IMG/VR virus record: IMGVR_UViG_3300021168_000029
Coordinates: 1-64,000 of that record
Length of the DNA stretch: 64,000 bases
Reading direction: 5' to 3' (one strand)
Origin: a virus
Under the pieces are notes generated by a model. That model searched no databases and was not told where the DNA came from. It saw only the letters and a program-made list of their open reading frames with translations. Positions 3,647 to 37,097 of the stretch are shown one piece after another. The stretch's first letter is position 1, and each line of letters opens with the position of its first letter. The position numbers and the translations under genes are program-made.

Positions 3647-5286
3647 TATGCTCTCCACTTCCCATCGTATATAGTCACGATGGTACGTTTACCGTTCGGG
3701 TACGTCACGATGTGCGAGTGCGTCCAGTTCGACGGACCCTTCGTGTAATCCCAGCGCAGCTTCGAGCTGGTGCCCGCGACGTACAGCCCGTTCCAGATGC
3801 CCGTCGAGTGGGTGTGGGCCGTGTTGGCCTTGCGTCCCATCTTCGACAGCTCTGCGGGGCTGCCAAACTTGCCCGAGGGGCCGAGGTGACCGTGCATGCC
3901 GTTTTCAATCTTGCGATTGCAGCTCAAGCACGACTCGTCGGCCTTCAAGAAGTAGAACGGAGCGGTGAAGCCGCCAACTTCTTTCAGCGCGTATTCGAGC
4001 ACGTTCACGTCGCGCACAAACTTCGGCTTTGCGGTGCGAGCGCGAGACTCCTCGTCGGTGACGCCGTTGCGAATCTGGCCGTACAGATACGATTGCAGAT
4101 TCAAAAAGATTTCGGTGTTCGGCGGGTCCTTGCGATAATCGTACTCACGCAGCCACTTCTTAATCCACGCGTCATCGTGATTCGAATCGACAACAAAGGT
4201 CTCGATGTCGCTGCGGTGGTAGCGGTTCAACAGCTTCACCGTGTCGACCAGCTCGTTGTCGAGCTTGTGGTAGCCGCGCAGCCACGTGTGGAACTTCTCA
4301 TGATTCGTGTTGTACTTGCGCTGGTGCGGATTGACCGCCGCGCCCTCCATGATGTCGTGCAGGAACTGATACTTCGGCACCAGCGCGTCACGCATATCCA
4401 GCGAGGCTGCAACAACATCCTCATCCGCAAAGACGCCGTGCAAGTCGCCATACGTAATGGCTTCAACGCGCGCTTCCCCTTGTTGAACCACGCCGTCCTT
4501 CACGAGCACGTTCAAATCTTGCAGCGTCCCGGTGCCCTCGTCCTGATTCAGCTGACGCACCCACCAGTTGCCCTTCGAGTTCACCTCGACGAGCAGCGCG
4601 CCGTAGATGTGATGAAACTCGGCGATGACGCCTTCGCGCTTCTGAATGTAGTTGCGCTGGGTCACGGTGCCCGTGGTGTAGTTCAGCTTCACACCCTCGC
4701 CCTGCATCGTTGCGATGCTGCGCATAGCGAGCTTGGCGTGCGGGAAGATGGCGCTCTTGCGGCCCGTGTAAGATTCCAGTCCGGCGAGCGGGTTCACGTT
4801 GGTCGGCAGAGCGTTGTACTCACCGCACCACACAAGACCCTTGCCAAGCTCGATACGCTCATCGCGGATGTACTTCTCGATGGCCGGGTCATACCACAGC
4901 TCTTTCTCGGCGCGCTTATCCGTGCCTTTCTTCACGCTGAGTTGACCGTAGTGGTTCTGATTGTAGGTGTAGGTCCCGACGATAATCTCAGCGCTGTAAA
5001 AATCCGCGAGCGCTTCCAGATTCGCGAGCAGCTCTTTGTGAACGTGCGTGTTATTCTGCGCAGAGGTGACGATGAATCGTTTTACGCCGCCCGAGGTCGG
5101 CAGCTTCGCCGCTTTGGTCTTGGTGCCGAGCTTCGTACCTCCGGCGAGCGGTTTCTTCATCTTGCCGAGCGGCGTCAAGTGGCGACGCACCGAGGAACGG
5201 GCGATGCCCAGCTCTTTCGCGGTCGCGCGGATGTTGCCGCTGTTACGGTCGAACGCTGCCGACACTTCTTCTGAAGATATCTTCAT
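3646..5286 (-). CDS. HTH + metallophosphoesterase (T5 A1-like)
   Basis: A 546-residue protein. Residues 1-40 form a Fis/HTH_8-like helix-turn-helix (TAKELGIARSSVRRHL). The remainder carries calcineurin-like phosphoesterase motifs: GDLH (280-283), DSNHDD (367-372), HGH (465-467) and AHTH (490-493), the metal-binding residues of that fold. Phage T5 A1, a first-step-transfer protein needed for host DNA breakdown, is an early protein of similar length and type. The resemblance is from motif and size; the role here is inferred. It starts after GAGGAAAAC. Confidence 0.7.
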   Translation of the reverse strand: MKISSEEVSAAFDRNSGNIRATAKELGIARSSVRRHLTPLGKMKKPLAGGTKLGTKTKAAKLPTSGGVKRFIVTSAQNNTHVHKELLANLEALADFYSAEIIVGTYTYNQNHYGQLSVKKGTDKRAEKELWYDPAIEKYIRDERIELGKGLVWCGEYNALPTNVNPLAGLESYTGRKSAIFPHAKLAMRSIATMQGEGVKLNYTTGTVTQRNYIQKREGVIAEFHHIYGALLVEVNSKGNWWVRQLNQDEGTGTLQDLNVLVKDGVVQQGEARVEAITYGDLHGVFADEDVVAASLDMRDALVPKYQFLHDIMEGAAVNPHQRKYNTNHEKFHTWLRGYHKLDNELVDTVKLLNRYHRSDIETFVVDSNHDDAWIKKWLREYDYRKDPPNTEIFLNLQSYLYGQIRNGVTDEESRARTAKPKFVRDVNVLEYALKEVGGFTAPFYFLKADESCLSCNRKIENGMHGHLGPSGKFGSPAELSKMGRKANTAHTHSTGIWNGLYVAGTSSKLRWDYTKGPSNWTHSHIVTYPNGKRTIVTIYDGKWRA

Positions 5287-21643: not shown

Positions 21644-21718
21644 GGTGTCGTTAGTGTAAAGGTAGCACGGGGGACTGTGAATCCCTCGGCACGGGTTCGA
21701 CCCCCGTACTTCACCCCA
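21644..21718 (+). tRNA. tRNA-His (GTG)
   Basis: Anticodon loop CTGTGAA. An encoded G at -1 opposite C73, the tRNA-His identity pair, is present, with CCA. Acceptor pairs 4:69 and 5:68 are T-T and C-T mismatches. Confidence 0.88.
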
Positions 21719-21733
21719 AGTTTAAAATAGTAC

Positions 21734-21762
21734 TTGACAAGTTTCGAGAACTGTGCTAGACT
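21734..21762 (+). promoter_or_regulatory. tRNA-array promoter B
   Basis: TTGACA (21734-21739), 17-base spacer, TAGACT (21757-21762). Confidence 0.82.
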
Positions 21763-21768
21763 GGTTCT

Positions 21769-21839
21769 CGAATCGCAGTAGCATCACCTTGCATTAGTTG
21801 CACCTCCAAGGGGCAGCTAGCACGAGCCAAAGCTGCCCC
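21769..21839 (+). ncRNA. Short RNA ending in a strong hairpin
   Basis: Starts at promoter B and ends with a perfect 9-bp hairpin (GGGGCAGCT...AGCTGCCCC, 21810-21839). The next promoter begins 12 bases later. No reading frame; no U-tract after the hairpin. Confidence 0.5.
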
Positions 21840-21850
21840 GAAAATAAAGC

Positions 21851-21879
21851 TTGACAAGGTTTCGAAAGTGTGGTAGGAT
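21851..21879 (+). promoter_or_regulatory. tRNA-array promoter C
   Basis: TTGACA (21851-21856), 17-base spacer ending GTGTGG, TAGGAT (21874-21879). The downstream gene starts eight bases past the -10. Confidence 0.85.
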
Positions 21880-21886
21880 GGGTTCA

Positions 21887-22069
21887 ATGGAAACGTTCGA
21901 AACGGAAATATGGATTCCGGCGAAGAACGGAGTCGGGCAACCACCCCGGCTGATTTCATGCCCCGAATGCGGGGACCCGGTTCGGAGACGACCCGGCAAC
22001 AGATATGTTTGCGAGTGCGGCGCGGAGACGACGTTAGACCTCACGCCAATCGAGCACAGAAAGGTTTAA
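21887..22069 (+). CDS. Zinc-ribbon protein with near-leaderless start, 60 aa
   Basis: METFETEIWIPAKNG... with CPECG (about 25-29) and CECG (about 40-43). The ATG is one base after the predicted transcription start of promoter C, so the mRNA has essentially no leader. It precedes the rest of the tRNA array and may share its transcript. Confidence 0.65.
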   Translation: METFETEIWIPAKNGVGQPPRLISCPECGDPVRRRPGNRYVCECGAETTLDLTPIEHRKV

Positions 22070-22149
22070 GAGTTCAAACCGTGGGCGGCTCATCACCGCA
22101 TGATGAACACGGGGCGGTCGGCTGGTTCACAGTCCACCAAAGCGGCAGA

Positions 22150-22166
22150 GTGGGTTCGACTCCCAC
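22150..22166 (+). ncRNA. Isolated T-arm (tRNA remnant?)
   Basis: GTGGG-TTCGACT-CCCAC is a perfect T-arm. A poor acceptor (GGGGCGG/CAGCTCC) can be drawn around it, but an anticodon arm is missing. A decayed or minimal tRNA. Confidence 0.4.
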
Positions 22167-22228
22167 CAGCTCCCGGGGCACTGGGACGGTAATGTATGGC
22201 GCATCCGCTGCGACTGGCTTTCCGACTT

Positions 22229-22393
22229 ATGAATGAACCAATAATTTTCTTGGCCCAGCGACGGGTCAGTACCGTGCAGATAGTCCACCTAGCCTTAAGT
22301 GGCGACGTCGAGGAAAGCGCGAAAGTTTACTTGCTGATTGCCGAAAAGACGCTACAGGTTCGCGAGCCTAATTCGGCGAGAAGCGTGGGCTGA
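22229..22393 (+). CDS. Possible small protein in tRNA array, 54 aa
   Basis: MNEPIIFLAQRRVST... with a plausible strand-helix pattern (VEESAKVYLLIAEKTL). No clear ribosome binding site, so the call is tentative. The DNA after it, to 22507, holds hairpins but no gene I can support. Confidence 0.35.
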   Translation: MNEPIIFLAQRRVSTVQIVHLALSGDVEESAKVYLLIAEKTLQVREPNSARSVG

Positions 22394-22507
22394 GTCTATG
22401 TCAAAGTCATCCGTAAGGGTGAAACACCATAGGCTACATTGCGTGGCCTGCCGTTGTGGCGAAAGCGTCCGGTTCGAAACGTTTGCTACGATGTATACAT
22501 TTTCTGT

Positions 22508-22596
22508 CGAGGTATAGGTCCGTAGCTTGGTAGCGGTCTGGTTTTGGAAACCAGTGCGGCAACGCCCCGGAGGTTCGAATCCTTCTATCTCGACCA
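22508..22596 (+). tRNA. tRNA-Pro (TGG)
   Basis: Anticodon loop TTTGGAA; C1-G72 as in bacterial tRNA-Pro; CCA encoded. Its variable region is 14 bases with a GCGGCAACGC hairpin, long for a class I tRNA. Confidence 0.85.
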
Positions 22597-22603
22597 TTTT
22601 TCA

Positions 22604-22680
22604 GCGGAGATAGGGTCAGTTGGTAACGACACGTCCCTGTCACGGATGAAGTACGGGTTCGATTCCCGTTATCTCCGCCA
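22604..22680 (+). tRNA. tRNA-Asp (GTC)
   Basis: Clean cloverleaf, acceptor GCGGAGA/TATCTCC-type, anticodon loop CTGTCAC, T-arm ACGGG/CCCGT, CCA encoded. Confidence 0.9.
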
Positions 22681-22689
22681 TTTTTCTAC

Positions 22690-22777
22690 TGGGGTGTGGC
22701 TCAATTGGTACAGCACCTGACTGTTAATCAGGCAGAGCTAGCGCTCATTACAGGTTCGAGTCCTGTTGCCCCAGCCA
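22690..22777 (+). tRNA. tRNA-Asn (GTT)
   Basis: Anticodon loop CTGTTAA, acceptor TGGGGTG/TGCCCCA, CCA encoded. The variable region has about 17 bases with a GAGC/GCTC hairpin, unusual for Asn. Confidence 0.87.
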
Positions 22778-22787
22778 ATTTTACTGT

Positions 22788-22866
22788 CGAGAAATAGAGG
22801 AGTTTGGCTTATCTCACTCGCTTCGGAAGCGAGGGCACGCTGGTTCGAATCCAGCTTTCTCGACCA
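22788..22866 (+). tRNA. tRNA-Pro (CGG)
   Basis: Anticodon stem CTCGC/GCGAG, loop TTCGGAA, acceptor CGAGAAA/TTTCTCG with C1-G72, CCA encoded. Normal variable loop. Confidence 0.88.
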
Positions 22867-22871
22867 ATTTT

Positions 22872-23194
22872 GTGGAGCCGTTCGGTTATCCACTACGGAC
22901 CCTTGCAGGGTCGCGGACAGCGCAGGCCCTTCGGGGCTGTAGCCTTCGGGCGCGCGAGGTCGCGGCTCTCTAGGGAGCGAACGGACACCGGAGCACGAAA
23001 GTGCGAAGGGGAACGAGGCGTCAAGGCACGCCTACCACGGAGATGTTGTCGCGACAGAGTCCATCAACCTATCGGGGTAGCTCCCTGACGGGGCCTCGCA
23101 TGCTGGTTTGGGGCAATAGGACTCGGCACTAAAGGTGCCCTATGCGGGACGGCGGCTCGCGCTGATAAAATCCGCCCGGAAATTAAGTCCACCA
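22872..23194 (+). ncRNA. Large structured RNA within the tRNA array, ~320 nt
   Basis: Not a tRNA, tmRNA, SRP or RNase P RNA by any motif I could find. It is a chain of hairpins: CCCTTCGGGG and GCCTTCGGGC (UUCG loops), CGCGAGGTCGCG, GCTCTCTAGGGAGC, GCACGAAAGTGC (GAAA loop), GGCAC-TAAAG-GTGCC inside ATAGG/CCTAT, and GGCGG/CCGCC. It ends in TCCACCA plus the array linker, and 5' TGGA can pair with the TCCA before the CCA. The position and design recall large phage RNAs such as GOLLD/ROOL, but it is much smaller. Confidence 0.55.
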
Positions 23195-23204
23195 ATTTGT
23201 TCGG

Positions 23205-23288
23205 GTGGCAGATGAGCTGAGAGGTGCGGGTTCGAGTCCCGCCGTGTGAGCTTGCTCGCACGTAGTTTAATGGTAGAACGCTCGGCAG
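23205..23288 (+). tRNA. Circularly permuted tRNA, acceptor end closed
   Basis: The 3' half comes first: anticodon-stem CTGAG (23217-23221), variable AGGT, T-arm GCGGG/CCCGC with TTCGAGT loop, acceptor strand CGTGTGA. Then G-CTTG-C (23250-23255), then the 5' half: acceptor strand TCGCACG, TA, D-arm GTT/AAC with a TAATGGTAG loop, G26, anticodon-stem CTCGG (23281-23285). All four stems pair. The ends fall in the anticodon loop, so the anticodon cannot be read with certainty. No CCA. Linkers on both sides match the other tRNA units. Confidence 0.75.
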
Positions 23289-23297
23289 ATTTTCAGT

Positions 23298-23382
23298 GCC
23301 CTGTTGGCGGAATTGGGAGACGCGCTGGTCTTAGGAACCAGTGACTTCGGTCGTGCAGGTTCGACTCCTGTGCGGGGTACCA
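23298..23382 (+). tRNA. tRNA-Leu (TAG)
   Basis: Anticodon stem CTGGT/ACCAG, loop CTTAGGA, long variable arm with ACTTCGGT, T-arm GCAGG/CCTGT, CCA encoded. Confidence 0.88.
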
Positions 23383-23393
23383 AGTTTGCATGT

Positions 23394-23421
23394 AGAGCGG
23401 GTCGAGCTGTAATCTCGGCCC
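23394..23421 (+). ncRNA. Anticodon-stem-loop mimic (GTA) / tRNA remnant
   Basis: An 8-bp stem GGGTCGAG/CTCGGCCC encloses a 7-base loop CTGTAAT with U33 and GTA at 34-36, exactly an anticodon arm for Tyr. It is preceded by TAGAGC, like the end of a D-arm, and followed by the AAATTT linker. No acceptor or T-arm is present. It is either a degraded tRNA or a free-standing mimic. Confidence 0.5.
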
Positions 23422-23443
23422 AAATTTAAGAAGGGAGGTTCTC

Positions 23444-23557
23444 ATGACCTTCTTCGAGAAGTATCTGATTGCGGTCTCGTTCACATCCGCAGCGCCTTTT
23501 GTGCTGCTGTGGGTTTGCCGTAAGTATCCAATCATCGCGCGAATCATCGCGCTGTAA
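23444..23557 (+). CDS. Single-helix membrane microprotein, 37 aa
   Basis: MTFFEKYLIAVSFTSAAPFVLLWVC... is a hydrophobic helix with a basic end (RKYPIIARIIAL). Start behind GGGAGGTTCTC. It lies inside the tRNA array. Confidence 0.65.
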   Translation: MTFFEKYLIAVSFTSAAPFVLLWVCRKYPIIARIIAL

Positions 23558-23562
23558 ATTTG

Positions 23563-23703
23563 CAAAGGCTTCCGTGAGCCAGAGAACGGACGAGTACTGT
23601 CTTCTTGCCTAAGCCAGCGCGTAAGTGATTCGCGACACACTCCGTGCGGACCCGCGTAAAAGGTTCCGGTCTAAGGGCACGTCAGCACCCCGAAAATTTC
23701 TGA
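23563..23703 (+). other. Unassigned spacer with hairpins
   Basis: About 140 bases with small hairpins (GGCT...AGCC; CGCG-containing arms) ending CACCCCGAAAATTTC, reminiscent of the array linker. No gene; possibly a degenerate tRNA or small RNA. Confidence 0.4.
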
Positions 23704-23781
23704 GCACTCGTCGGGAAACTGGATATCCCAACGGCGTTCTAACCCGTACCAAAGAGAGTTCGAATCTCTCCGAGTGTTCCA
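23704..23781 (+). tRNA. tRNA-Arg (TCT)
   Basis: Acceptor GCACTCG/CGAGTGT, anticodon loop GTTCTAA, T-arm GAGAG/CTCTC, CCA encoded. Confidence 0.85.
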
Positions 23782-23871
23782 ATATTTGTGTCGCGTCAAG
23801 TCCTTCGCCAGCTTCGGCTGCAAGGCGCGGTAATCTCTGTGGTTCAGAGCAAACACGATTCCGATTTCTGA
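23782..23871 (+). other. Unassigned spacer with hairpins
   Basis: Ninety bases with CAGCTTCGGCTG and CTCTGTGGTTCAGAG hairpins. tRNA-sized but not foldable as a tRNA; no gene. Confidence 0.4.
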
Positions 23872-23946
23872 GGGCTGCTCGTATATCGGAAATTGCATAG
23901 CGCTACGAACGCTAGGAGCGGGGTTCGACTCCCCGGTGGCCCTCCA
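23872..23946 (+). tRNA. tRNA-Arg (ACG)
   Basis: Acceptor GGGCTGC/GTGGCCC, anticodon stem TAGCG/CGCTA, loop CTACGAA, T-arm CGGGG/CCCCG, CCA encoded. A34 would need editing to inosine to read all CGN codons. Confidence 0.87.
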
Positions 23947-23954
23947 AGTTTTAT

Positions 23955-24039
23955 CGCCTGCTGGCGGAACTGGCAGACGCGCGGGATTCAAAACCCCGTG
24001 CCTTCGGGCGTCACGGTTCGACTCCGTGGTGGGCGACCA
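23955..24039 (+). tRNA. tRNA-Leu (CAA)
   Basis: Anticodon loop TTCAAAA, long variable arm with CTTCGG, acceptor CGCCTGC/GTGGGCG (C1-G72, atypical for Leu), CCA encoded. Confidence 0.86.
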
Positions 24040-24045
24040 AGTTTT

Positions 24046-24186
24046 ATGATGACCTGCGTTTGTGGTAAAAAATTTAATCGAGTAAAGAGACGAATCAAGA
24101 AATTTATCTCAGGCTATCGCATGAGAAAAGTTTGGGCGTCTTGCTCTTGCGGAACTCGCTATCAGTGGCTAGAGGTCATCAAGTAA
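24046..24186 (+). CDS. Zinc-ribbon microprotein in tRNA array, 46 aa
   Basis: MMTCVCGKKFNRVKRR... with CVCG and CSCG pairs and the ending TRYQWLEVIK. It is strongly basic. A related peptide with the same CxCG...YQW pattern lies at 24888-25055. No ribosome binding site, so the exact start (24046 or 24049) is uncertain. Confidence 0.6.
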   Translation: MMTCVCGKKFNRVKRRIKKFISGYRMRKVWASCSCGTRYQWLEVIK

Positions 24187-24191
24187 GCTTT

Positions 24192-24277
24192 GCGCGTGTG
24201 GCGGAATGGCATACGCGGCGCACTTAAAACGCGCTACCCCTTTGGGTGTGAGGGTCCGACTCCCTCGACGCGCACCA
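24192..24277 (+). tRNA. tRNA-Leu (TAA)
   Basis: Anticodon loop CTTAAAA, variable arm TACCCCTTTGGGTGT, acceptor GCGCGT/ACGCGC, CCA encoded. T-loop begins TCCGA. Confidence 0.87.
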
Positions 24278-24282
24278 AGTTT

Positions 24283-24357
24283 GAATCGGAAGCCAATCGA
24301 TTAGGCGGCGGATTGCAAACCCGCTATTGGTCAGTTTGACTCTGACCCGGTTCTCCA
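24283..24357 (+). tRNA. tRNA-Cys (GCA)
   Basis: Acceptor GAATCGG/CCGGTTC, anticodon stem GCGGA/CCCGC, loop TTGCAAA, T-arm GTCAG/CTGAC, CCA encoded. Confidence 0.85.
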
Positions 24358-24426
24358 AGTTTGTCGGCGAAACAGTTCAGACACAAATGCCGAATCGTTC
24401 TGGCGTCAACGAAAGACTGCCTACTT
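24358..24426 (+). other. Leader segment upstream of RNase P RNA
   Basis: About 70 bases between tRNA-Cys and the first RNase P helix. They contain GGCG/CGCC-type pairings but no tRNA or reading frame; probably a processed leader. Confidence 0.4.
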
Positions 24427-24714
24427 TTTGGTAGCGTAGACGAACGCTGGCGCGCAAGCGCTGGAGGAAGTTCCGGGCATAACTCAACATCGTGCCGTGG
24501 AAGTTGCGGGCCGCGTAAGCGGACGGGTAAGGCTTCGTACTCAGCGAGAGCAGCAGAAATGTTAGCGTAGATACCTGAGTCATTCAAGCGAAGGCACTCC
24601 ACACGGATGCAACAGCAAATAGGACCGGAGCGCTTGTTGAGCGTGATGAAGGTCGGGTAGCTGGCTCAGAGGAATGTTCGTCCTAGACAGAACCCGGGCT
24701 ATCGCGCAACCAAA
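24427..24714 (+). ncRNA. rnpB: RNase P RNA, bacterial type
   Basis: The catalytic RNA of RNase P, which removes tRNA 5' leaders. Landmarks in order: P1 TTTGGTAGCG with CGCAACCAAA; P2 GACGAAC with GTTCGTC; a short P3 capped by GCAA; CR-I GGAGGAAGTTCCGGGC; CR-II region CAGCAGAAATG; CR-IV ACTCCACACGGATGCAA then CAAATAGG; CR-V AGAGGAATG...AGACAGAACCCGGGCTAT. Each aligns to the E. coli sequence in the same order. At about 288 nt it is shorter than the usual 350-400; P3 and parts of the specificity domain are reduced. The GGU that normally pairs with tRNA CCA in L15 is not obvious. Confidence 0.93.
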
Positions 24715-24720
24715 TTCAGT

Positions 24721-24796
24721 CGACTGCGATTTCGAGTGGCAGAATGATTCCCTCTTAAGGAACACGGTCTCGGTTCAAGTCCGAGGCGGTCGACCA
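24721..24796 (+). tRNA. tRNA-Lys (CTT)
   Basis: Anticodon loop CTCTTAA, acceptor CGACTGC/GCGGTCG, T-arm CTCGG/CCGAG with TTCAAGT, CCA encoded. It begins six bases after the RNase P RNA. Confidence 0.87.
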
Positions 24797-24806
24797 AATT
24801 TTCAGT

Positions 24807-24882
24807 GCATTGCGATATCGAGCGGCAGATGGCGCGCCTTTTAAGCGCTGAGGTCGGGGTTCAAGTCCCCGGCGATGCACCA
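24807..24882 (+). tRNA. tRNA-Lys (TTT)
   Basis: Anticodon loop CTTTTAA, acceptor GCATTGC/GCGATGC, T-arm CGGGG/CCCCG, CCA encoded. Confidence 0.88.
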
Positions 24883-24887
24883 AGTTT

Positions 24888-25055
24888 ATGAGCCTTCACA
24901 AAACATCACGGTCTGTAGGTCTGATGTGTCAGTGCGGAAAGTATGTCGAGGGTAAAGTTCAACCCGACCGCGAGACTGTCGTGAAGTGCGAAGATTGCAA
25001 GATTGTTTATCAGTGGTCTTCGATGGGCCAGCGTTGGTACAAAACGAATTTATAA
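24888..25055 (+). CDS. Zinc-ribbon microprotein in tRNA array, 55 aa
   Basis: MSLHKTSRSVGLMCQCGKYV... with CQCG (about 14-17) and CEDC (about 34-37), then IVYQWSS. It resembles the 24046 peptide in architecture, so the two may be paralogues. No ribosome binding site is visible. Confidence 0.6.
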   Translation: MSLHKTSRSVGLMCQCGKYVEGKVQPDRETVVKCEDCKIVYQWSSMGQRWYKTNL

Positions 25056-25057
25056 AC

Positions 25058-25129
25058 GGCAGTCTCAGCCGATAGCAAAAACGCAAGAGGCGGGCACGGT
25101 GATTCCCCCGGTACACAATACTGTCACCA
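25058..25129 (+). ncRNA. tRNA-sized element without T-arm
   Basis: Seventy-two bases beginning GGCAGTC and ending TACTGTC-A-CCA, which form six of seven acceptor pairs, followed by the AATTTTC linker. No TTCGA T-loop can be found; an alternative GGTGA/TCACC hairpin is possible. A degenerate or unusual tRNA. Confidence 0.45.
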
Positions 25130-25137
25130 AATTTTCT

Positions 25138-25213
25138 ACCCGATTATCAAACTGGTCGTATGAACCTCTCCTACAAAGAGGCTGGCAGAGTTCGATTCTC
25201 TGATTGGGTACCA
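25138..25213 (+). tRNA. tRNA-Val (TAC)
   Basis: Acceptor ACCCGAT/ATTGGGT, anticodon stem CCTCT/AGAGG, loop CCTACAA, CCA encoded. The only Val tRNA seen. Confidence 0.88.
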
Positions 25214-25221
25214 ATTTCTAT

Positions 25222-25296
25222 TCCTCGTTCGTCTAATGGCGAAGGCCCAAGTCTTATAAACTTGAGACGGTGGTCCGATTCCACCACGAGGCACCA
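25222..25296 (+). tRNA. tRNA-Ile (TAT)
   Basis: Anticodon stem CAAGT/ACTTG, loop CTTATAA, T-arm GGTGG/CCACC, CCA encoded. Reads AUA directly without lysidine modification. Confidence 0.87.
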
Positions 25297-25298
25297 AT

Positions 25299-25372
25299 GG
25301 CGTTGTCGATTAGTGGCAGGTCGCTTGGTTCTCAACCAAGTAGCGCGAGTTCGATTCTCGCCATCGCTACCA
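25299..25372 (+). tRNA. tRNA-Glu (CTC)
   Basis: Anticodon stem CTTGG/CCAAG, loop TTCTCAA, T-arm GCGAG/CTCGC, CCA encoded. It starts two bases after the previous CCA. Confidence 0.87.
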
Positions 25373-25376
25373 AGTT

Positions 25377-25431
25377 TTGCCGTTCAGGAAACCCGGGGTC
25401 CGAAAGGGGCCGGGATAACAGGAGGCGGCAA
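25377..25431 (+). ncRNA. Compact structured RNA, 55 nt
   Basis: Bounded by TTGCCG and CGGCAA, with an internal CCCGG/CCGGG stem and a GAAA loop. It occupies a tRNA-like slot between Glu tRNAs. No known riboswitch was recognised. Confidence 0.5.
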
Positions 25432-25442
25432 GAAGTTTCAGT

Positions 25443-25518
25443 GCTCATGTCGTCTAGTGCTCTAGGACGCCGCCCTTTCAAGGCGAGAACGCGGGTTGAA
25501 ATCCCGCCGCGAGTACCA
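25443..25518 (+). tRNA. tRNA-Glu (TTC)
   Basis: Anticodon stem CGCC/GGCG, loop CTTTCAA, T-arm GCGGG/CCCGC with an atypical TTGAAAT loop, CCA encoded. Confidence 0.84.
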
Positions 25519-25528
25519 ATTTTACTGT

Positions 25529-25605
25529 GGGCCGTTCGCCTAATTGGGATGGCACCTCGCTTGCACCGAGGAATAATGAGGGTTCGAGTCCCTTATGGTC
25601 CACCA
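25529..25605 (+). tRNA. tRNA-Ala (TGC)
   Basis: Acceptor GGGCCGT/ATGGTCC with a G3-T70 wobble, the Ala identity element; anticodon stem CCTCG/CGAGG, loop CTTGCAC; CCA encoded. Confidence 0.9.
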
Positions 25606-25614
25606 ATTTTCAGT

Positions 25615-25688
25615 TGACGAGTCGTCTAACGGCAGGACGATTCTCTGATAAGGAATAAGAGAGTGTTCGATTCACTCCTCGTCAACCA
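25615..25688 (+). tRNA. tRNA-Ile (GAT)
   Basis: Acceptor TGACGAG/CTCGTCA, anticodon loop CTGATAA, T-arm GAGTG/CACTC, CCA encoded. Confidence 0.87.
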
Positions 25689-25697
25689 TTTTTCTGT

Positions 25698-25786
25698 TGC
25701 GCGGTCGACTAGATGGCCGATGTCGCCAGTCTCATAAGCTGGAATCCGAAAGGACACCAAGGGTTCGAATCCCTTCTGCGCAACCA
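25698..25786 (+). tRNA. tRNA-Met (CAT)
   Basis: Anticodon stem CCAGT/GCTGG, loop CTCATAA. T1-A72 is paired and the anticodon stem lacks the three G-C pairs, so it is not an initiator; it could be elongator Met or, if modified, Ile2. The variable region is about 16 bases with a TCC-GAAA-GGA hairpin, long for this class. Confidence 0.83.
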
Positions 25787-25794
25787 AGTTTTGA

Positions 25795-25868
25795 GCGGTG
25801 TTGATGTAATGGTAGCATTGGAGTTTTCCAAACTCTTCGTCTCGGTTCGAGTCCGTGACGCCGCTCCA
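25795..25868 (+). tRNA. tRNA-Gly (TCC)
   Basis: Acceptor GCGGTGT/ACGCCGC, anticodon stem GGAGT/ACTCT, loop TTTCCAA, CCA encoded. Confidence 0.87.
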
Positions 25869-25876
25869 GTTTCAGG

Positions 25877-25951
25877 GCGAGGTTGGTATAATGGTAGCAC
25901 GAGACGTTGCCAACGTCTAGGCGCGGGTTCGACTTCCCGCACTTCGCTCCA
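25877..25951 (+). tRNA. tRNA-Gly (GCC)
   Basis: Acceptor GCGAGGT/ACTTCGC, anticodon loop TTGCCAA, T-arm GCGGG with a TTCGACT loop, CCA encoded. Confidence 0.87.
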
Positions 25952-25960
25952 ATTTTCTGA

Positions 25961-26034
25961 GTCGATGTAGTATAGTGGTAGAACAGTTCTTTGGTAAAGA
26001 ACAAGCGCAGGTCCGATTCCTGCCTTCGGCTCCA
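25961..26034 (+). tRNA. tRNA-Thr (GGT)
   Basis: Anticodon stem GTTCT/AGAAC, loop TTGGTAA, T-arm GCAGG/CCTGC, CCA encoded. The acceptor GTCGATG/CTTCGGC has a T-T at 6:67. Confidence 0.85.
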
Positions 26035-26035
26035 T

Positions 26036-26111
26036 GCACTGCTCATACAGCGGTCCAGTATACCGAGCTTGTACCTCGGTCACATTCGTTCGAATCGAAT
26101 GCGGTGCTCCA
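26036..26111 (+). tRNA. tRNA-Thr (TGT)
   Basis: Acceptor GCACTGC/GCGGTGC, anticodon stem CCGAG/CTCGG, loop CTTGTAC, CCA encoded; one base after the previous CCA. Confidence 0.87.
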
Positions 26112-26117
26112 ATTTTT

Positions 26118-26191
26118 GCCTTGTTGGTCTAGTGGTATGACGCCTCTTTCGTAAAGAGGACGCCGGGGTCCGATTCCTCGACGAGGCTCCA
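26118..26191 (+). tRNA. tRNA-Thr (CGT)
   Basis: Acceptor GCCTTGT/ACGAGGC, anticodon stem CCTCT/AGAGG, loop TTCGTAA, CCA encoded. Confidence 0.88.
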
Positions 26192-26196
26192 AGTTT

Positions 26197-26285
26197 GGAT
26201 GAGCGGCGCAGTTGGAGTGGCGCGGCAGGCTGTAACCCTGTTGGCCCTTGGGCCATAGAGAGTTCGAATCCCTCATCATCCACCA
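26197..26285 (+). tRNA. tRNA-Tyr (GTA)
   Basis: Anticodon loop CTGTAAC and a long variable arm (TTGGCCCTTGGGCCA), as in bacterial tRNA-Tyr; CCA encoded. Confidence 0.88.
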
Positions 26286-26520
26286 TTCTTTTCTCTCGCG
26301 CCTGAAAAACGCGAGGGACCATGACGCCGAACGGCAAGGCGCATCTAGTACGAGGTAGATACGAAGGCGGCTTAGTCCGTACGTGCTGACCTAGACAGCA
26401 TTCGTCCATCGTGTCCGCGTGTGAGTTCGAATCCCACTGGGAGCGGGTGATTTCAACGTGAGTCCAAAGGGCTGTGACACGGCCAGCCACGCGGTGAAAT
26501 AGGAAGCTCAGATTTTCTAC
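26286..26520 (+). other. Long spacer with hairpin and T-arm fragment
   Basis: About 235 bases. A CTCGCG/CGCGAG hairpin at the start is followed by a possible 22-residue frame behind GAGGGACC (26318). A T-arm-like GTGAG-TTCGAAT-CCCAC sits at 26421-26437 with no matching acceptor. Near the end, AGGAAGC is a perfect partner for the tRNA-Trp 3' acceptor strand. It reads like tRNA debris. Confidence 0.45.
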
Positions 26521-26594
26521 AGGTTGCAAGTGTTGCGGTAGCACATCCGGCTCCAACCCGGAGAGAGTGGGTTCGACTCCTACGCTTCCTGCCA
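26521..26594 (+). tRNA. tRNA-Trp (CCA)
   Basis: Anticodon stem TCCGG/CCGGA, loop CTCCAAC, D-arm GTG/CAC, CCA encoded. The acceptor AGGTTGC/GCTTCCT has T-T mismatches at 4:69 and 5:68. Confidence 0.85.
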
Positions 26595-26609
26595 ATTTAA
26601 GAGGCTCCG

Positions 26610-27026
26610 ATGGACGCACTTCATAAGCTGTTGCTGACTGGCGAAATTTTCAGCGGTGCGGTTCTCGGCTTGATTGCGGTATCCACCATATTTGGTGTAA
26701 TTAACAAATATCGCGGGCTGTATGTGCCGTGGGCCGGGGCACAGCAGGTCGCGGCGCAAGAGTTGACGGCATCTAAAGAAGGTTGGCCTCATCGAGCGCT
26801 GGTCGCGTTCGATATCTGGTTCAATGTTACGATTCTTCGAGGCCAGCAGGACGAAACGATTTCAACGCACAGCTGGCGCGCGCAGCAAGAAGGCAAGCTG
26901 TGGGGCAAGCTGATGTGCAAGTGGCTGAACGGGTTTCAGCCGAATCACGGATTCAAAGCAGCGAGCGGGGATTTGGAAAGAGCCAAGTCGCGCGTCGCGC
27001 AGCTCAGCAAGATGCTAGGAGTTTAA
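26610..27026 (+). CDS. Membrane-anchored phage protein, 138 aa
   Basis: A hydrophobic segment at about 12-31 (EIFSGAVLGLIAVSTIFGVI) is followed by a soluble domain with WFNVTILRGQQDETIS and a C-terminal helix. The DETIS motif with an upstream membrane helix is a pattern I recognise from other phage proteins of unknown role. It interrupts the tRNA array. Confidence 0.65.
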   Translation: MDALHKLLLTGEIFSGAVLGLIAVSTIFGVINKYRGLYVPWAGAQQVAAQELTASKEGWPHRALVAFDIWFNVTILRGQQDETISTHSWRAQQEGKLWGKLMCKWLNGFQPNHGFKAASGDLERAKSRVAQLSKMLGV

Positions 27027-27033
27027 GTTTACG

Positions 27034-27120
27034 GATGGTCGGCGAAGCCGGAGTGTCGTACTGGTTTGCTAAACCAGCGGGTGAAAGCCCGAGTGAGTTC
27101 GAATCTCACATCATCCGCCA
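27034..27120 (+). tRNA. tRNA-Ser (GCT)
   Basis: Anticodon stem CTGGT/ACCAG, loop TTGCTAA, long variable arm CGGGTGAAAGCCCG, acceptor GGATGGT/ATCATCC, CCA encoded. Confidence 0.88.
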
Positions 27121-27127
27121 AGTTTAT

Positions 27128-27216
27128 GGATGGTACCGCGCAACGGTGTGCAATCCGGTTTGAACCCGGAGGCTCGTAGAGATACGGGGGCGTTCGATTC
27201 GTCTACCAGTCCGCCA
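27128..27216 (+). tRNA. tRNA-Ser (TGA)
   Basis: Anticodon stem CCGG/CCGG, loop TTTGAAC, long variable arm, CCA encoded. The acceptor has two mismatches. Confidence 0.82.
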
Positions 27217-27221
27217 TTTAC

Positions 27222-27306
27222 GGAAGACAGTGCGAATGGCTCGCAACGGGTTTCGAACACCCGACCGTCTGAAAGGACGACAGTTCGATTCTGTTCTCTT
27301 CCTCCA
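27222..27306 (+). tRNA. tRNA-Ser (CGA)
   Basis: Anticodon stem CGGGT/ACCCG, loop TTCGAAC, variable arm CCGTCTGAAAGGACG, T-arm ACAG/CTGT, CCA encoded. Confidence 0.86.
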
Positions 27307-27307
27307 T

Positions 27308-27381
27308 CCCCTGTGAGTGTGAGGGTAGCACCCCAGTTTGAAACACTGGTAGGCGTGGTTCGACTCCACGACTTGGGACCA
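27308..27381 (+). tRNA. tRNA-Phe (GAA)
   Basis: Anticodon stem CCAGT/ACTGG, loop TTGAAAC, T-arm CGTGG/CCACG, CCA encoded. The acceptor CCCCTGT/ACTTGGG has C-T and T-T mismatches at 4:69 and 5:68. Confidence 0.84.
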
Positions 27382-27390
27382 ATTTTCTGT

Positions 27391-27470
27391 GCCTCGGTAG
27401 CTCAGAGCGATAAGAGCATTCGGCATTTAACCGAAAGGTCATACGCGTTGCGTCGTGTTCGAGGCTTCCA
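27391..27470 (+). tRNA. Atypical tRNA-like element (loop CATTTAA)
   Basis: Acceptor GCCTCGG/TCGAGGC and anticodon stem TTCGG/CCGAA are sound, but position 33 is A rather than U, the T-arm ACGCG/CGTGT has a 6-base loop lacking TTCGA, and an extra T precedes CCA. Read as a tRNA it would have anticodon TTT (Lys). Possibly degenerate or specialised. Confidence 0.5.
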
Positions 27471-27478
27471 TTTTCTGT

Positions 27479-27554
27479 TGGGCGATAGTTTAACTGGTAG
27501 AACGGGTGACTTTGAATCACTCAGGTGAAGGTTCGAATCCTTCTTACCCAACCA
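27479..27554 (+). tRNA. tRNA-Gln (TTG)
   Basis: Acceptor TGGGCGA/TTACCCA, anticodon loop CTTTGAA, T-arm GAAGG/CCTTC, CCA encoded. Confidence 0.87.
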
Positions 27555-27559
27555 ATCTT

Positions 27560-27641
27560 GTCGTCGGTCTGGTACTTGGAGAAAGCAAACGCGTAGCGAC
27601 CCTCCAAGGAAAAGGGACCCCATCGCCCCAGTGGGGACGAC
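27560..27641 (+). ncRNA. Stem-bounded structured RNA, ~82 nt
   Basis: GTCGTC at the start pairs with GACGAC at the end; inside, CTTGGAG pairs with CTCCAAG, and a CCCC/GGGG hairpin follows. It lies between the two Gln tRNAs, is tRNA-sized and has no T-arm. Confidence 0.5.
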
Positions 27642-27653
27642 ATTTATTTCTGT

Positions 27654-27728
27654 TGCGATGTCATTCAATTGGCAGGATGGCGCTCTCTGAAAGCGTTCAT
27701 GGTGGTTCGAGTCCACCCGCCGCAACCA
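27654..27728 (+). tRNA. tRNA-Gln (CTG)
   Basis: Anticodon loop CTCTGAA, acceptor TGCGATG/CGCCGCA, T-arm GGTGG/CCACC, CCA encoded. Last tRNA of the array. Confidence 0.86.
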
Positions 27729-32610: not shown

Positions 32611-34923
32611 ATGGCAACATCAGAACAAGCGAAAGAGGCAGCCCGTCGTAGACAGGCGAACAAGCGCGCCCGCGATAAGGGAATGCCGGAGCCGTATCCG
32701 GTAACTGATGTTGTTGCAGAGGAAGAAGAGAAGGGTCTTCGGCTTAAAGAGCACGCGGAGAACCTCGCTTGGGCACACGAGCTAGATGCGGGCGAAACCT
32801 TTTATAAGAGCGAGTGCCGCAGCGCAGTCTCATTGCTTGCTATTTATGAGGGTGCCGCGCCTACCATCGTGGGCGAAGAAGACCCAGATATTATCGATGC
32901 TAAGACGGGGAAGAAGAAGAATAACTTCCCAATACCAGCTGCTCAAAAAATCGTGATTCGTGCTATTAGAATCGGCGGCGAGAATATTGAGCCGGACAAC
33001 ACCGAGCACAGAAAGACTTACGAGGTTGACCGGGTAGTCTCGTTTCGTGATTGGCTGGACCTGCGCGACAAAGCGCGCAAAGATTTGTTCTGGCTTGGCC
33101 GTTTACTAGGTATGGGCTTGTTTCATTGCACACATCAGATAATTTGTGACGCGTTCGTTCAAAAGAACTTTGACGGTTTGTACTTCCCTGATTGCACTAT
33201 CGATGATATCCACGAGATGATTGGGAAGCAGAAACGTTTTGCTACTGATGGCTCAGAGACTCGCACACTAATTTTGCTCGCTCCTCGTTCTGGATATAAA
33301 TCAACAATCGATGGATTGGATGCGGTGCAGTGGATGTTGAACTGCCCGGACATTCGTATCATGATAATGACATCGGTTAAGAGACTGTCTACTCAGTTGA
33401 TGGGCGAAATTAAGCAGTATTTTTATTTGCCTTCTCGTGGAAAACCGTCTGCATTTCAGATGCTCTTCCCTGAGTATATTTTGACGGGCGTCGATGGCCG
33501 CTCGGAACAAGCAATTACGTGCCCCGCTCATATATGCGAAATCAAAGAAGACCACGTCTGGATTACGTCGCTAGACTCGAACTTCGTTGGTCAACGTTGC
33601 GACATCAGAAAACTAGATGACGCCGTCGAAGACAAGAACTCAGCTGATGAAGAACTTCGAGCGAAGCTGAAAGAGAAGATTAAATCAACTAACGCAATCA
33701 TTGAATCGTGGGGATTCACGGATATTATCGGTACTCGGTATTTTACGACAGACTGGTACGGCTGGCGCATGGGCGCTATACCGGAAGACGAAGATGCAGA
33801 CACAGTGGAATCATTCAAGTATCTATGCCTCGCTTGTTGGACCCCGAAACCTGAATTTCGAGTCCTTTATGACCAACTTTTAGAGAAGCCGAAAGGACTT
33901 TTTGAAGTTACCGAGGATATGGTTGATTTGTGGTTTCCTTATAAGCACACTTGGAAAGCGCTTCGTACCAAGATGAAGGAATACAAAGAGCGCGGTTTCA
34001 AAAACCAGTATTTGAACATCGCAACAGACCCGCTCGAAGTTACCGATTTAATAACCCACTTCGATAGAGAGACTTTGCGTCAGAAGACTTACGCGCGCAC
34101 AGCCGCTCCAACAACAGGAGAAGTAATTGTAGTTGTTGATTGGGCCTATACGGATAACAGAGGGTCTGATTATTGTGTACTAGCTGCCATTCTTCGACAC
34201 ACTCGCGAGGACGGAACTGAAGAACTCGTTGTTCTCGATATAGATTTTGATAAGTGGAGAGCGACGGACCTTGCGGACCATTTTGTCCGATTTTTGAGAC
34301 AGCATAAGCCGCGTCGAACGTTTATAGAAGCGTGTAACGGGATTGACCTTCTAATGGCCGTGGTTCATTCGTATGCGATGAAATACAACTGTTTGCAAGT
34401 TTTGAATGGCATCATAAAAGTGCCAACAGGAAATACGGCGAACGAGAAAACAAATCGCATTAAAACGCTGGAAGTCTTAATTGCCGATGACCGCCTTCAC
34501 TTTGTGTCCGGCCCGTGGAACGACGAGTTGTATAAGCAGTTCGAAAGATTCACTGGTGAGACTAAGAAGGGCCGTAAGGACGATATACCGGATGCCATCT
34601 CTCAAGCTTCTCGAACTCTCCCACCGGAGATGTTCATTCGAGCTAGACTGACCCCGGAAGAAGAAGGTCAGAAAGCGGAAGACGAAGAGAAAGCAGAGAG
34701 ACGCCGCATCACGAGAATGCGTCATGACGCAATGTTCTCCGGCACGCCTCACAGTCAGACAAAAGATTTGGCCCCTACGATTCACGCGCCAACGTGGAAA
34801 CAATATCTACGCGGCGAACGGGGTGATGCAACGAAACCACCGGAACCGGAAGAACCGGAACCAACAAAGCCGCTAGACCCTCGAATGATTATATTCGGCA
34901 ATAAAGGGCCTTGGCGCTTATAA
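32611..34923 (+). CDS. terL: Terminase large subunit
   Basis: A 770-residue packaging motor, long for the family. Walker A-like APRSGYKST (224-232) in the ATPase half; the C-terminal RNase H-fold nuclease has VVDWAYTDNRGSDY (about 508-521), then KTNRIKTLEVLIADDRLHF and GRKDDIPDAISQA, the usual last catalytic aspartates. The N-terminal 150 residues and the Pro-rich C-terminus are extensions. Upstream of the portal, as expected. No small subunit was recognised. Confidence 0.9.
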   Translation: MATSEQAKEAARRRQANKRARDKGMPEPYPVTDVVAEEEEKGLRLKEHAENLAWAHELDAGETFYKSECRSAVSLLAIYEGAAPTIVGEEDPDIIDAKTGKKKNNFPIPAAQKIVIRAIRIGGENIEPDNTEHRKTYEVDRVVSFRDWLDLRDKARKDLFWLGRLLGMGLFHCTHQIICDAFVQKNFDGLYFPDCTIDDIHEMIGKQKRFATDGSETRTLILLAPRSGYKSTIDGLDAVQWMLNCPDIRIMIMTSVKRLSTQLMGEIKQYFYLPSRGKPSAFQMLFPEYILTGVDGRSEQAITCPAHICEIKEDHVWITSLDSNFVGQRCDIRKLDDAVEDKNSADEELRAKLKEKIKSTNAIIESWGFTDIIGTRYFTTDWYGWRMGAIPEDEDADTVESFKYLCLACWTPKPEFRVLYDQLLEKPKGLFEVTEDMVDLWFPYKHTWKALRTKMKEYKERGFKNQYLNIATDPLEVTDLITHFDRETLRQKTYARTAAPTTGEVIVVVDWAYTDNRGSDYCVLAAILRHTREDGTEELVVLDIDFDKWRATDLADHFVRFLRQHKPRRTFIEACNGIDLLMAVVHSYAMKYNCLQVLNGIIKVPTGNTANEKTNRIKTLEVLIADDRLHFVSGPWNDELYKQFERFTGETKKGRKDDIPDAISQASRTLPPEMFIRARLTPEEEGQKAEDEEKAERRRITRMRHDAMFSGTPHSQTKDLAPTIHAPTWKQYLRGERGDATKPPEPEEPEPTKPLDPRMIIFGNKGPWRL

Positions 34924-34988: not shown

Positions 34989-37097
34989 ATGATGAGCGAT
35001 ATCGACGTAGCAATACAAAATTTGGCACAAGAACCAGCCGAAGAGATTACGATGGAGAATACTCACATCGACTCCGACACTGGGACCGTGCAGTTCAACG
35101 ATACCGCTGCGATTAAACTCGTTCTTGATGATACCGAGCTAGCAGATAACTTTCTTAACATCAACCAGTGGGCCAGCGGTTGGACGATGTCCGACTTGCT
35201 GTACCAGTCGCCGATGTCTACGGACAGCGCGAACAACGGGACGGACGTAGCAACGTCGTCGGTTCCGAAGTTCATGGTCTCGAACCACATCAGTTCGATT
35301 GTCCCGAAGATTATGGGCGGCATCTTCTACGAAGACCCTTGTTTCCTGCTTCGTCCAAGTCCGGGCACCACGCCGGAAGTGATTCAAGCGAAGACTGCGA
35401 TGTTTACCTTCCAGCTCAAGGCCATGCGCTTTGAGGAAGAGGTTGAGCGCGGGCTAGAGCAGATGGCCCTTCTCGGCACCGCAATCTGGAAGTGGGGATA
35501 CGCGGAATACGAGAAGACCGAGAAGAAGTACAAGCGCTACGCGCCCAAGGTTCAAGTGCCGGAAGGTCTCACGACTGCTCCGATTGACACGCCGGATTCG
35601 GACGACTTCGAGATTGAGTTTTACAAGAAGACCGTCTCTCATCCGTGGATTAAGTACTGCGACATCCGTACGGTTCTTGTTGACCCGGGATGCCGTGTAG
35701 GCGACATTCGCACAGCGAAGTGGGTTGTTTGGCGCGATTACGCGACGTACCAAGATTTAGAGCGTCTGCGCGGCGTTGAGGGCTATAACATTCCGAGCGA
35801 GGAAATTCTTCGCCAGATGTTCATGAAGTCGACCTCGCCGGGGCCGGACAATATTACGATGACCATCCCGGAAGGGATGATGGGCTACTTGCAGCACTCG
35901 AAGCCACGCTCGTACAAGACCAGCGCCGACCCAAACAGAGCCCCGCTCGAAATTTTGGAGCGTTGGGACAACGAAAAAGTTATCGTTGTGCTCATCTACA
36001 ACGGCCACAATATTTTGATTCGCAATGAAGCCAACCCTTACGGAAAGATTCCTTTCTATTCGGCGAACTGGCGCAATATCCCGGATTCGTTCTACGGTCA
36101 GGGACTCGGCCTGCTAATCGGCAGCGAGCAGATTGTTGAGCAGGGTGTAACGAACCTTGCGCTTGACCTGCTTGCCTACTGTTTGCAACCCGTAGCGCTT
36201 CGTAAGAAAGGCTACAATGCCCCGACGCAGAATACGCGCTGGGAGCAGGGCGGAATCATCGACGTTGAAGAAGACGTCGAAAAAGCTTTTAAGTTCCTAC
36301 AAATGCCGACACCTCCTCAAGAGGCATTCGCATTCATCCAGCAGTCGCAGTCAGCGGGTGCAGCTACCTCGGGCGCGAACGAGCAGGTCGTTCAAGGCGC
36401 GGGACACGCAGGCATCAGCACGACAGGCATGAGAAGCGGAACCGGAGCGGCAGCGGTCGTACAAGCGAACGCAAGCCGACTCGATGGACCGACCGGACGA
36501 TTCGTTCGTCAGGTTTTCGAACCGTGGCTCTTTCAAATGGACGACCTCGACAACGACCTGTTGCCGACTTCGGTCATCAAGGACATCCTCGGCGAGAAGA
36601 TTGGCAACGACTTCAAGGTCGACCACATCCAGTATCGCAATGCGAAGGTCGAGTACGAAGTTCTAGCGGGAGCAAACCTCGGTGCCAAGAAGGAAATGGC
36701 GCAGGCTCTCCCAATCATGATTCAGCTGTTGAACAACCCGGTCTTCGTTGCAAACGCAAATGACGCCGGATATCAGTTCGACGCGGTCGCCATCTTCCAA
36801 GCGTTCGTGGACGCAGCAGGCTGGAAGTTCAGTCAGGCCTTCCTACGCGAAATGACGGACGATGAGAAGCAGCGTCATCAGGCGAACAGCCCAGCGGCGA
36901 TGCAGCAAGCGCAGGCGAAGGCAGCACAGCAGCAGCAGCAGGCGAAGTTCGAACAGGAACAGACGCTCGAAAACCAGAAGCAGCTCGGCAAGGCGGGCAA
37001 TGAAGCCTTCCGCTCTTCTATCGAGAAATCAACCAGCCCGGAACTCTCGGGCGGGCCGGACCAGACGCAAGGCTTCGGTTCAACAACGGCACTATAA
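34989..37097 (+). CDS. Portal protein
   Basis: A 702-residue protein directly after the terminase. It contains the wing/stem-like pattern of large podovirus portals, with a WKWGYAEYEK segment, IPFYSANWRNIPDSFYGQGLGLLIG near the middle, and a Gln-rich C-terminal helix (QQAQAKAAQQQQQ). The size is like the P22 portal (725). The dodecameric portal is the DNA channel and packaging gate. Start at the first or second ATG of ATGATG. Confidence 0.85.
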   Translation: MMSDIDVAIQNLAQEPAEEITMENTHIDSDTGTVQFNDTAAIKLVLDDTELADNFLNINQWASGWTMSDLLYQSPMSTDSANNGTDVATSSVPKFMVSNHISSIVPKIMGGIFYEDPCFLLRPSPGTTPEVIQAKTAMFTFQLKAMRFEEEVERGLEQMALLGTAIWKWGYAEYEKTEKKYKRYAPKVQVPEGLTTAPIDTPDSDDFEIEFYKKTVSHPWIKYCDIRTVLVDPGCRVGDIRTAKWVVWRDYATYQDLERLRGVEGYNIPSEEILRQMFMKSTSPGPDNITMTIPEGMMGYLQHSKPRSYKTSADPNRAPLEILERWDNEKVIVVLIYNGHNILIRNEANPYGKIPFYSANWRNIPDSFYGQGLGLLIGSEQIVEQGVTNLALDLLAYCLQPVALRKKGYNAPTQNTRWEQGGIIDVEEDVEKAFKFLQMPTPPQEAFAFIQQSQSAGAATSGANEQVVQGAGHAGISTTGMRSGTGAAAVVQANASRLDGPTGRFVRQVFEPWLFQMDDLDNDLLPTSVIKDILGEKIGNDFKVDHIQYRNAKVEYEVLAGANLGAKKEMAQALPIMIQLLNNPVFVANANDAGYQFDAVAIFQAFVDAAGWKFSQAFLREMTDDEKQRHQANSPAAMQQAQAKAAQQQQQAKFEQEQTLENQKQLGKAGNEAFRSSIEKSTSPELSGGPDQTQGFGSTTAL

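Follow-up and report, generated by a model that had tools for sequence, protein, structure and literature searches.

An RNase P RNA gene lies inside a tRNA array in the stretch of DNA analysed here, the first 64,000 nucleotides (the window) of the 66,412 bp IMG/VR record IMGVR_UViG_3300021168_000029. By covariance model, the RNA is a bacterial class A RNase P RNA (Table 1). The preferred reading, to which we assign a probability of roughly 70%, is that this gene for the RNase P RNA subunit genuinely belongs to the phage, and that its product would be excised from the tRNA transcript, join the host RnpA protein and mature the phage tRNAs. Direct support comes from the covariance identity, the phage context, the position in the array on the strand of the tRNAs, the recurrence in other phages, the kept pairing, and the fact that no phage RnpA was found.

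The covariance-model search that an earlier note on these letters had proposed (cmscan of the whole 64 kb window with Rfam 15) placed RF00010 on the RNA end to end, covering model positions 1-367. The score of 102 bits compares with a gathering score of 100 bits, and the E value of 4.7e-30 is for the whole 64 kb searched with all 4227 families. The landmarks of RNase P RNA that the note had claimed were all found, namely the motifs GAGGAAGTTCCGGGC, CAGAAATG, CAAATAGG, AGAGGAATG, and GACAGAACCCGGGCTAT. The core motifs GAGGAA and ACAGAAC are both present, and a two-motif pattern had no match in 100 dinucleotide shuffles. At 290 nt, the RNA falls below the length of every one of the 85 bacterial main matches to RF00010 listed from two phyla (overall 324-457 nt), which were 345-432 nt long with 163-356 bits in 60 genomes of Pseudomonadota and 324-457 nt long with 188-307 bits in 25 genomes of Bacteroidota. 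The note had described the RNA as shortened; the ends it gave (24427-24714, about 288 nt) differ from these by 1-3 nt.

Table 1. Features of the window, followed by other viral records with RNase P RNA in tRNA arrays.
Feature or record	Position in window, or record length	Strand	Details
RNase P RNA gene, reduced class A	24428..24717	+	RF00010, 102 bits, E 4.7e-30, full model
P1	24430..24437 / 24704-24711	+	7 pairs, 1 mismatch (pair check)
P2	24439..24445 / 24676-24682	+	GACGAAC / GUUCGUC, 7/7 pairs
P3, short hairpin	24447..24464	+	7 pairs, GCAA loop
P4	24469..24477 / 24693-24700	+	AGU[U]CCGGG, bulged U at 24472 / CCCGGGCU
P5	24478-24480 / 24607-24609	+
P7	24491-24494 / 24602-24605	+
Reduced specificity domain	24533..24593	+	P10 24533-24537/24589-24593; P11 24539-24544/24575-24580; encloses CAGAAATG
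P15-P16-P17	24613..24663	+	P15 24613-24616/24660-24663; P16 24623-24626/24651-24654; P17 24630-24635/24639-24644
L15 GGGU motif	24655-24658	+
tRNA array	21645..27728	+	about 31 tRNAs, 20/20 amino acids
tRNA-Cys(GCA)	24283..24357	+	CCA encoded; RF00005 38.2 bits; missed by ARAGORN
tRNA-Lys(CTT)	24721..24796	+	CCA encoded; RF00005 27.2 bits, just below cut-off 29; acceptor and T stems read directly
T5 A1-like DNA transfer protein	3646..5286	-	phrog_1745, E 1e-155
Terminase large subunit (TerL)	32611..34923	+	phrog_38, E 1e-41
SU10-like portal protein	34989..37097	+	phage hallmark
G001	34.7 kb		71.6 bits, E 1e-23; TerL, portal, DnaB, DNA polymerase, tmRNA
G005	84 kb		64.8 bits, E 6e-21; major head, tail sheath
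G009, G018, G019	162, 190, 31 kb		253-280 bits; head, portal, baseplate
G011, G015, with L086	G011 100 kb, G015 155 kb		G011 and G015 both 209 bits; L086 182.5 bits
L077, L080, L090	23.6, 369, 114 kb		261-277 bits; major head and PhoH families in the pooled L080/L090 sample
L097	363 kb		299.5 bits; phage-type replication genes only, weaker phage evidence

Helices P1, P2, P3, P4, P5, P7, P9, P10, P11, P15, P16, and P17 can be drawn in the window RNA, with arms checked by hand and standard pairs throughout except for one mismatch in P1; P9 closes with a GUAA loop. The local fold and motif of the 3' half are those of class A, with P15-P16-P17 and the L15 GGU. P18 is absent, and P12-P14 and the GGUGAAA motif are not recognisable, while P10 and P11 are present. 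The strong reduction of the specificity domain, with a P12 region that cannot be recognised, may alter substrate recognition. In RNase P RNA, the L15 GGU motif binds the CCA of tRNAs; the motif is kept in the window RNA, and the tRNAs of the window encode CCA. Among reduced natural RNase P RNAs, the specificity domain is variable (PMC8172020).

The P4 helix, the folding of which the note had named as a point of refutation, does pair. The bacterial P4 strand reads AAG before the bulged U, with CUU as its partner (27 sequences with both arms extracted, plus 9 Bacteroidota read separately), and in the window, the two pairs beside the bulge, A-U and G-C, are replaced by G-C and a U-G wobble, so that both sides are changed with the pairing kept. 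The changed positions are constant in the 36 bacterial sequences, and the surroundings (GAGGAA, the bulged U, CCGGG/CCCGG, and ACAGAAC) are unchanged. When 84,980 species genomes were scanned for the 3' motif of this P4, covering the pattern GAATGN{4,34}GACAGAACCCGGGCTA and its spacing only, two chance matches came back, neither of them in an RNase P RNA, and in both genomes the true rnpB was located elsewhere.

Judged by the TerL, portal, and A1-like DNA-transfer proteins that it encodes, the window genome is that of a phage; the terminase family PF03237 of Pfam was too insensitive to serve as proof of phage status. The A1-like protein shares up to about 45% identity with cultured phages. The nearest relative of TerL, at 27% identity, belongs to Tunturiibacter phage Tunturi_3, in which no RNase P RNA was found and two tRNAs were predicted. 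A second record, IMGVR_UViG_3300050821_006962 (G002, 91 kb), is at least 99.995% identical to the window over the first 57.4 kb of the window and adds a primase-polymerase, a UvrD helicase, and an RtcB RNA ligase. The latter, a possible tRNA repair enzyme, is encoded outside the window (L013:13529-14836; Pfam E 9e-106).

The location inside a tRNA array, also claimed in the note, stands, with about 31 tRNAs around the RNA, all on the plus strand; ARAGORN predicted 29 of them, likewise all on the plus strand and all 29 with encoded CCA. The RNA lies on the same strand between tRNA-Cys and tRNA-Lys, 70 nt after the former, and 9 nt separate P1 from the latter, a comparatively loose arrangement in which the upstream tRNA is not flush. 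The 70-nt spacer (24358-24429) contains a possible hairpin and might harbour a promoter or the remains of a tRNA. Two cysteine-rich, zinc-ribbon-like ORFs of 46 and 55 amino acids (24046-24186 and 24888-25055, both plus strand) flank the RNA; neither matched a Pfam family, and they could not be aligned with each other.

Pattern scans of 2.9 million viral contigs of IMG/VR, followed by RF00010 and tRNA searches, recovered RNase P RNAs, with 65-300 bits, inside tRNA arrays of uncultured, mostly unrelated phages that form six or more additional lineages; the lineage counts, coming from exact-pattern scans, are lower bounds. The scores of G001 and G005 fall under the curated RF00010 cut-off, and in these two RNAs, as in that of the window, the specificity domain is strongly reduced. 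In every one of the 12 array cases the RNase P RNA shares the strand of its neighbouring tRNAs, and in 10 of them the start or end of a tRNA lies no more than 6 nt away; the model ends, and with them the gap lengths, are uncertain by a few nucleotides. The tightest order is that of G005, with tRNA-Gly, 0 nt, RNase P RNA, 1 nt, and tRNA-Thr. A tRNA-Cys is directly upstream of the RNA both in the window and in the group of G011 and L086. In three phage groups, changes on both sides that keep the pair were counted at 9, 12, and 10 predicted pairs, the structures being RNAalifold predictions without pseudoknots from two or three sequences per group; the window type is known from one distinct sequence, so covariation within it is not countable. 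A tmRNA gene (L007:15503-15835) is predicted in G001, a phage that has about 25 tRNAs, all lacking an encoded CCA, in addition to its RNase P RNA.

Placement against bacterial rnpB, as suggested in the note, was pursued with a tree of 49 sequences (13 phage and 36 bacterial), which was built but is poorly resolved, with the window, G001, and G005 RNAs on very long branches. The sequence nearest to the window RNA is L086, with 58% identity over 232 columns. A single origin of all phage RNase P RNAs was neither rejected nor shown (AU p 0.084).

Linkage to tRNAs is not a general property of rnpB, because none of 35 bacterial loci had a tRNA within 1.5 kb (1.5 kb covered on each side in nearly all). 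Likewise, RNase P RNA is neither general to tRNA-rich phages nor generally needed by them, since it was not found in the cultured phages XacN1 (60 tRNAs), T5 (25), KVP40 (31), Atu_ph07 (31), and Asterius (29), where the sole match was at chance level (KVP40, E 0.78). The protein subunit RnpA (Pfam PF00825) was not found in any of 13 virus records, among them G002 with its 91 kb of the window phage, nor when G000, G001, and G002 were searched separately, while the same search was positive in 10 of 14 control genomes; this fits the suggestion of the note that the RNA could use the protein of the host.

A blastn comparison of the window RNA and of other phage RNase P RNAs with 50,697 phage records gave no true phage match. 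The matches examined in detail were a Salmonella genome record, the Acinetobacter 'phage MD-2021a', which carries bacterial metabolic genes, 'Microcystis phage MaAM05' (INPHARED MW495066.1, 107323-123676, L100), which was deposited as a phage and looks bacterial with its FabI, GlyS, FliM, EngB, and rnpB, and two unannotated faecal records with no tRNA array around the match. Many prophage contigs of IMG/VR contain the 3' part of rnpB only, or lack a tRNA array, and were treated as host flank. In six contigs of the prophage type (L065, L066, L067, L078, L079, and L084), the 3' part of the host rnpB lies near one end, as if the adjoining region were an attachment site, and in two of these a tRNA-Met lies beside it. 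Nor were G004 (48292-48630) and G016 (324315-324653), of 372 and 497 kb, counted as phage cases, since they may be viruses or another kind of element; they share an RNase P RNA of 247 bits outside a tRNA array, G004 has 49 tRNAs elsewhere, and the nearest tRNAs found in L062 lie 9 kb from the RNA.

The RNA might be a decoy, a takeover factor and not a working enzyme, which would depress the RNase P activity of the host by binding its RnpA protein or pre-tRNA. Such a role would agree with the divergence of the window RNA and the reduction of its substrate-recognition domain, and with the lack of a detected phage RnpA, given which any action would have to run via the host protein. We regard it as unlikely, however, given that maturation of the phage's own 31 tRNAs would suffer too, that the catalytic P4 helix with its bulged U and the CCA-binding L15 motif are kept although a decoy has no need of them, and that the gene sits in tRNA arrays and not among early takeover genes. 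Quite unlikely, in our estimate, is a diverged RNase P RNA that acts mainly on another substrate, such as phage mRNA, tmRNA, or another phage RNA, and for which the tRNA operon provides expression only: the consistent position in tRNA arrays points to tRNA precursors, as does the L15 GGU kept alongside CCA-encoding tRNAs, even if the strongly reduced specificity domains of the window, G001, and G005 RNAs, and the tmRNA gene predicted in G001, tmRNA being a substrate of RNase P (PMC11143913), would suit another target.

The low score of the window RNA, just above the cut-off, its long branch, and the scores of G001 (72) and G005 (65) under that cut-off could be expected of a functionless passenger or decaying gene acquired together with host tRNAs. 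The paired P4 substitutions argue against decay, because pairing survives changes on both sides at otherwise constant positions, and pairs are preserved in the same manner within the three phage groups. Moreover, co-capture with tRNAs is improbable when none of the bacterial rnpB loci tested has a tRNA nearby, and the trait recurs in several phage lineages, which leaves a passenger very unlikely. Least credible, and extremely improbable, is an assembly chimera or host contamination joining a bacterial rnpB to a phage contig. The source is a metagenome, the sole other copy (G002) is practically identical and may share the sample, and INPHARED does contain mislabelled bacterial records with rnpB; against this, the RNA is flanked by two phage tRNAs with encoded CCA, in a 6 kb array that has phage genes to either side, it matches no record of the phage collection, the genome scan found its P4 variant in no bacterial RNase P RNA, and similar arrays occur in many phage contigs from other samples.

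For a phage RNase P RNA subunit serving the phage's own tRNAs, the RNA would be transcribed within the polycistronic tRNA precursor and cut out as tRNA ends are processed; if the next tRNA adjoins it without a gap, RNase P itself would generate the 3' end of the RNA. The RNA would then bind host RnpA, adding an RNase P activity matched to the phage pre-tRNAs, with which the full tRNA set could mature quickly, or in hosts with limiting, degraded, or poorly matched RNase P. The wider proposal, that several phage lineages have built an RNase P RNA into their tRNA transcript, where it is released by tRNA processing, helps to make its own ends, and recruits host RnpA for a phage-tuned maturation independent of host RNase P RNA, has in our view about even odds; if true, it would represent a virus-encoded RNase P that borrows the host protein. 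The RNase P RNA of the host need not be lost, because host rnpB RNA is reported to be relatively stable in T4 infection, where it was suggested to process the phage tRNAs (PMC9697503).

RNase P RNA is usually regarded as a cellular housekeeping gene. A full-text search of open-licence papers found no earlier report of a phage-encoded RNase P RNA, in agreement with the remark in the note that no characterised phage rnpB was known; tools for finding rnpB make no mention of phages or viruses (PMC7191817, PMC2996960), and a survey of huge phages, which reports numerous translation genes, does not name RNase P in its main text (PMC7162821). With phage RNase P RNAs in tRNA operons, the virus-encoded translation machinery would reach as far as the central ribozyme of tRNA maturation, and the ability of some phages to use 30-60 tRNAs of their own would have a plausible explanation. 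As natural minimal and P4-variant RNAs, they could be used for probing the needs of the catalytic core. They also carry a warning, in that rnpB, used as a marker of genome completeness (PMC8172020), is not proof that a contig is cellular.

With bacterial class A rnpB (RF00010), the window RNA shares the full-length match, helices P1-P5, P7, P9-P11, and P15-P17, and the motifs GAGGAA, ACAGAAC, CAAATAGG, and L15 GGU; it differs in being phage-encoded within a tRNA array with no rnpA, in its length of 290 nt, and in its unrecognisable P12 region, absent P18, and replaced inner pairs of P4. The missing peripheral helices and low RF00010 scores recall the reduced RNase P RNAs of CPR bacteria, which were found through lowered thresholds (PMC8172020), and the same paper cites that of Mycoplasma fermentans as another reduced form. 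However, the RNAs of CPR bacteria and M. fermentans are the only RNase P RNA of the cell, whereas those of phages are extra viral copies beside tRNA genes. Theta ribozymes (PMC10879173), the nearest parallel in kind, are likewise a phage-encoded family of catalytic RNAs beside phage tRNAs with a proposed role in tRNA maturation; these are small, self-cleaving, HDV-like RNAs acting in cis on the tRNA 3' trailer, while the window RNA belongs to a family of multiple-turnover ribozymes that act on the 5' leader, normally with a protein. The multimeric tRNA precursors of T4-type phages also need RNase P (PMC11143913), but T4 uses the enzyme of its host, whereas the window phage brings the RNA subunit itself.
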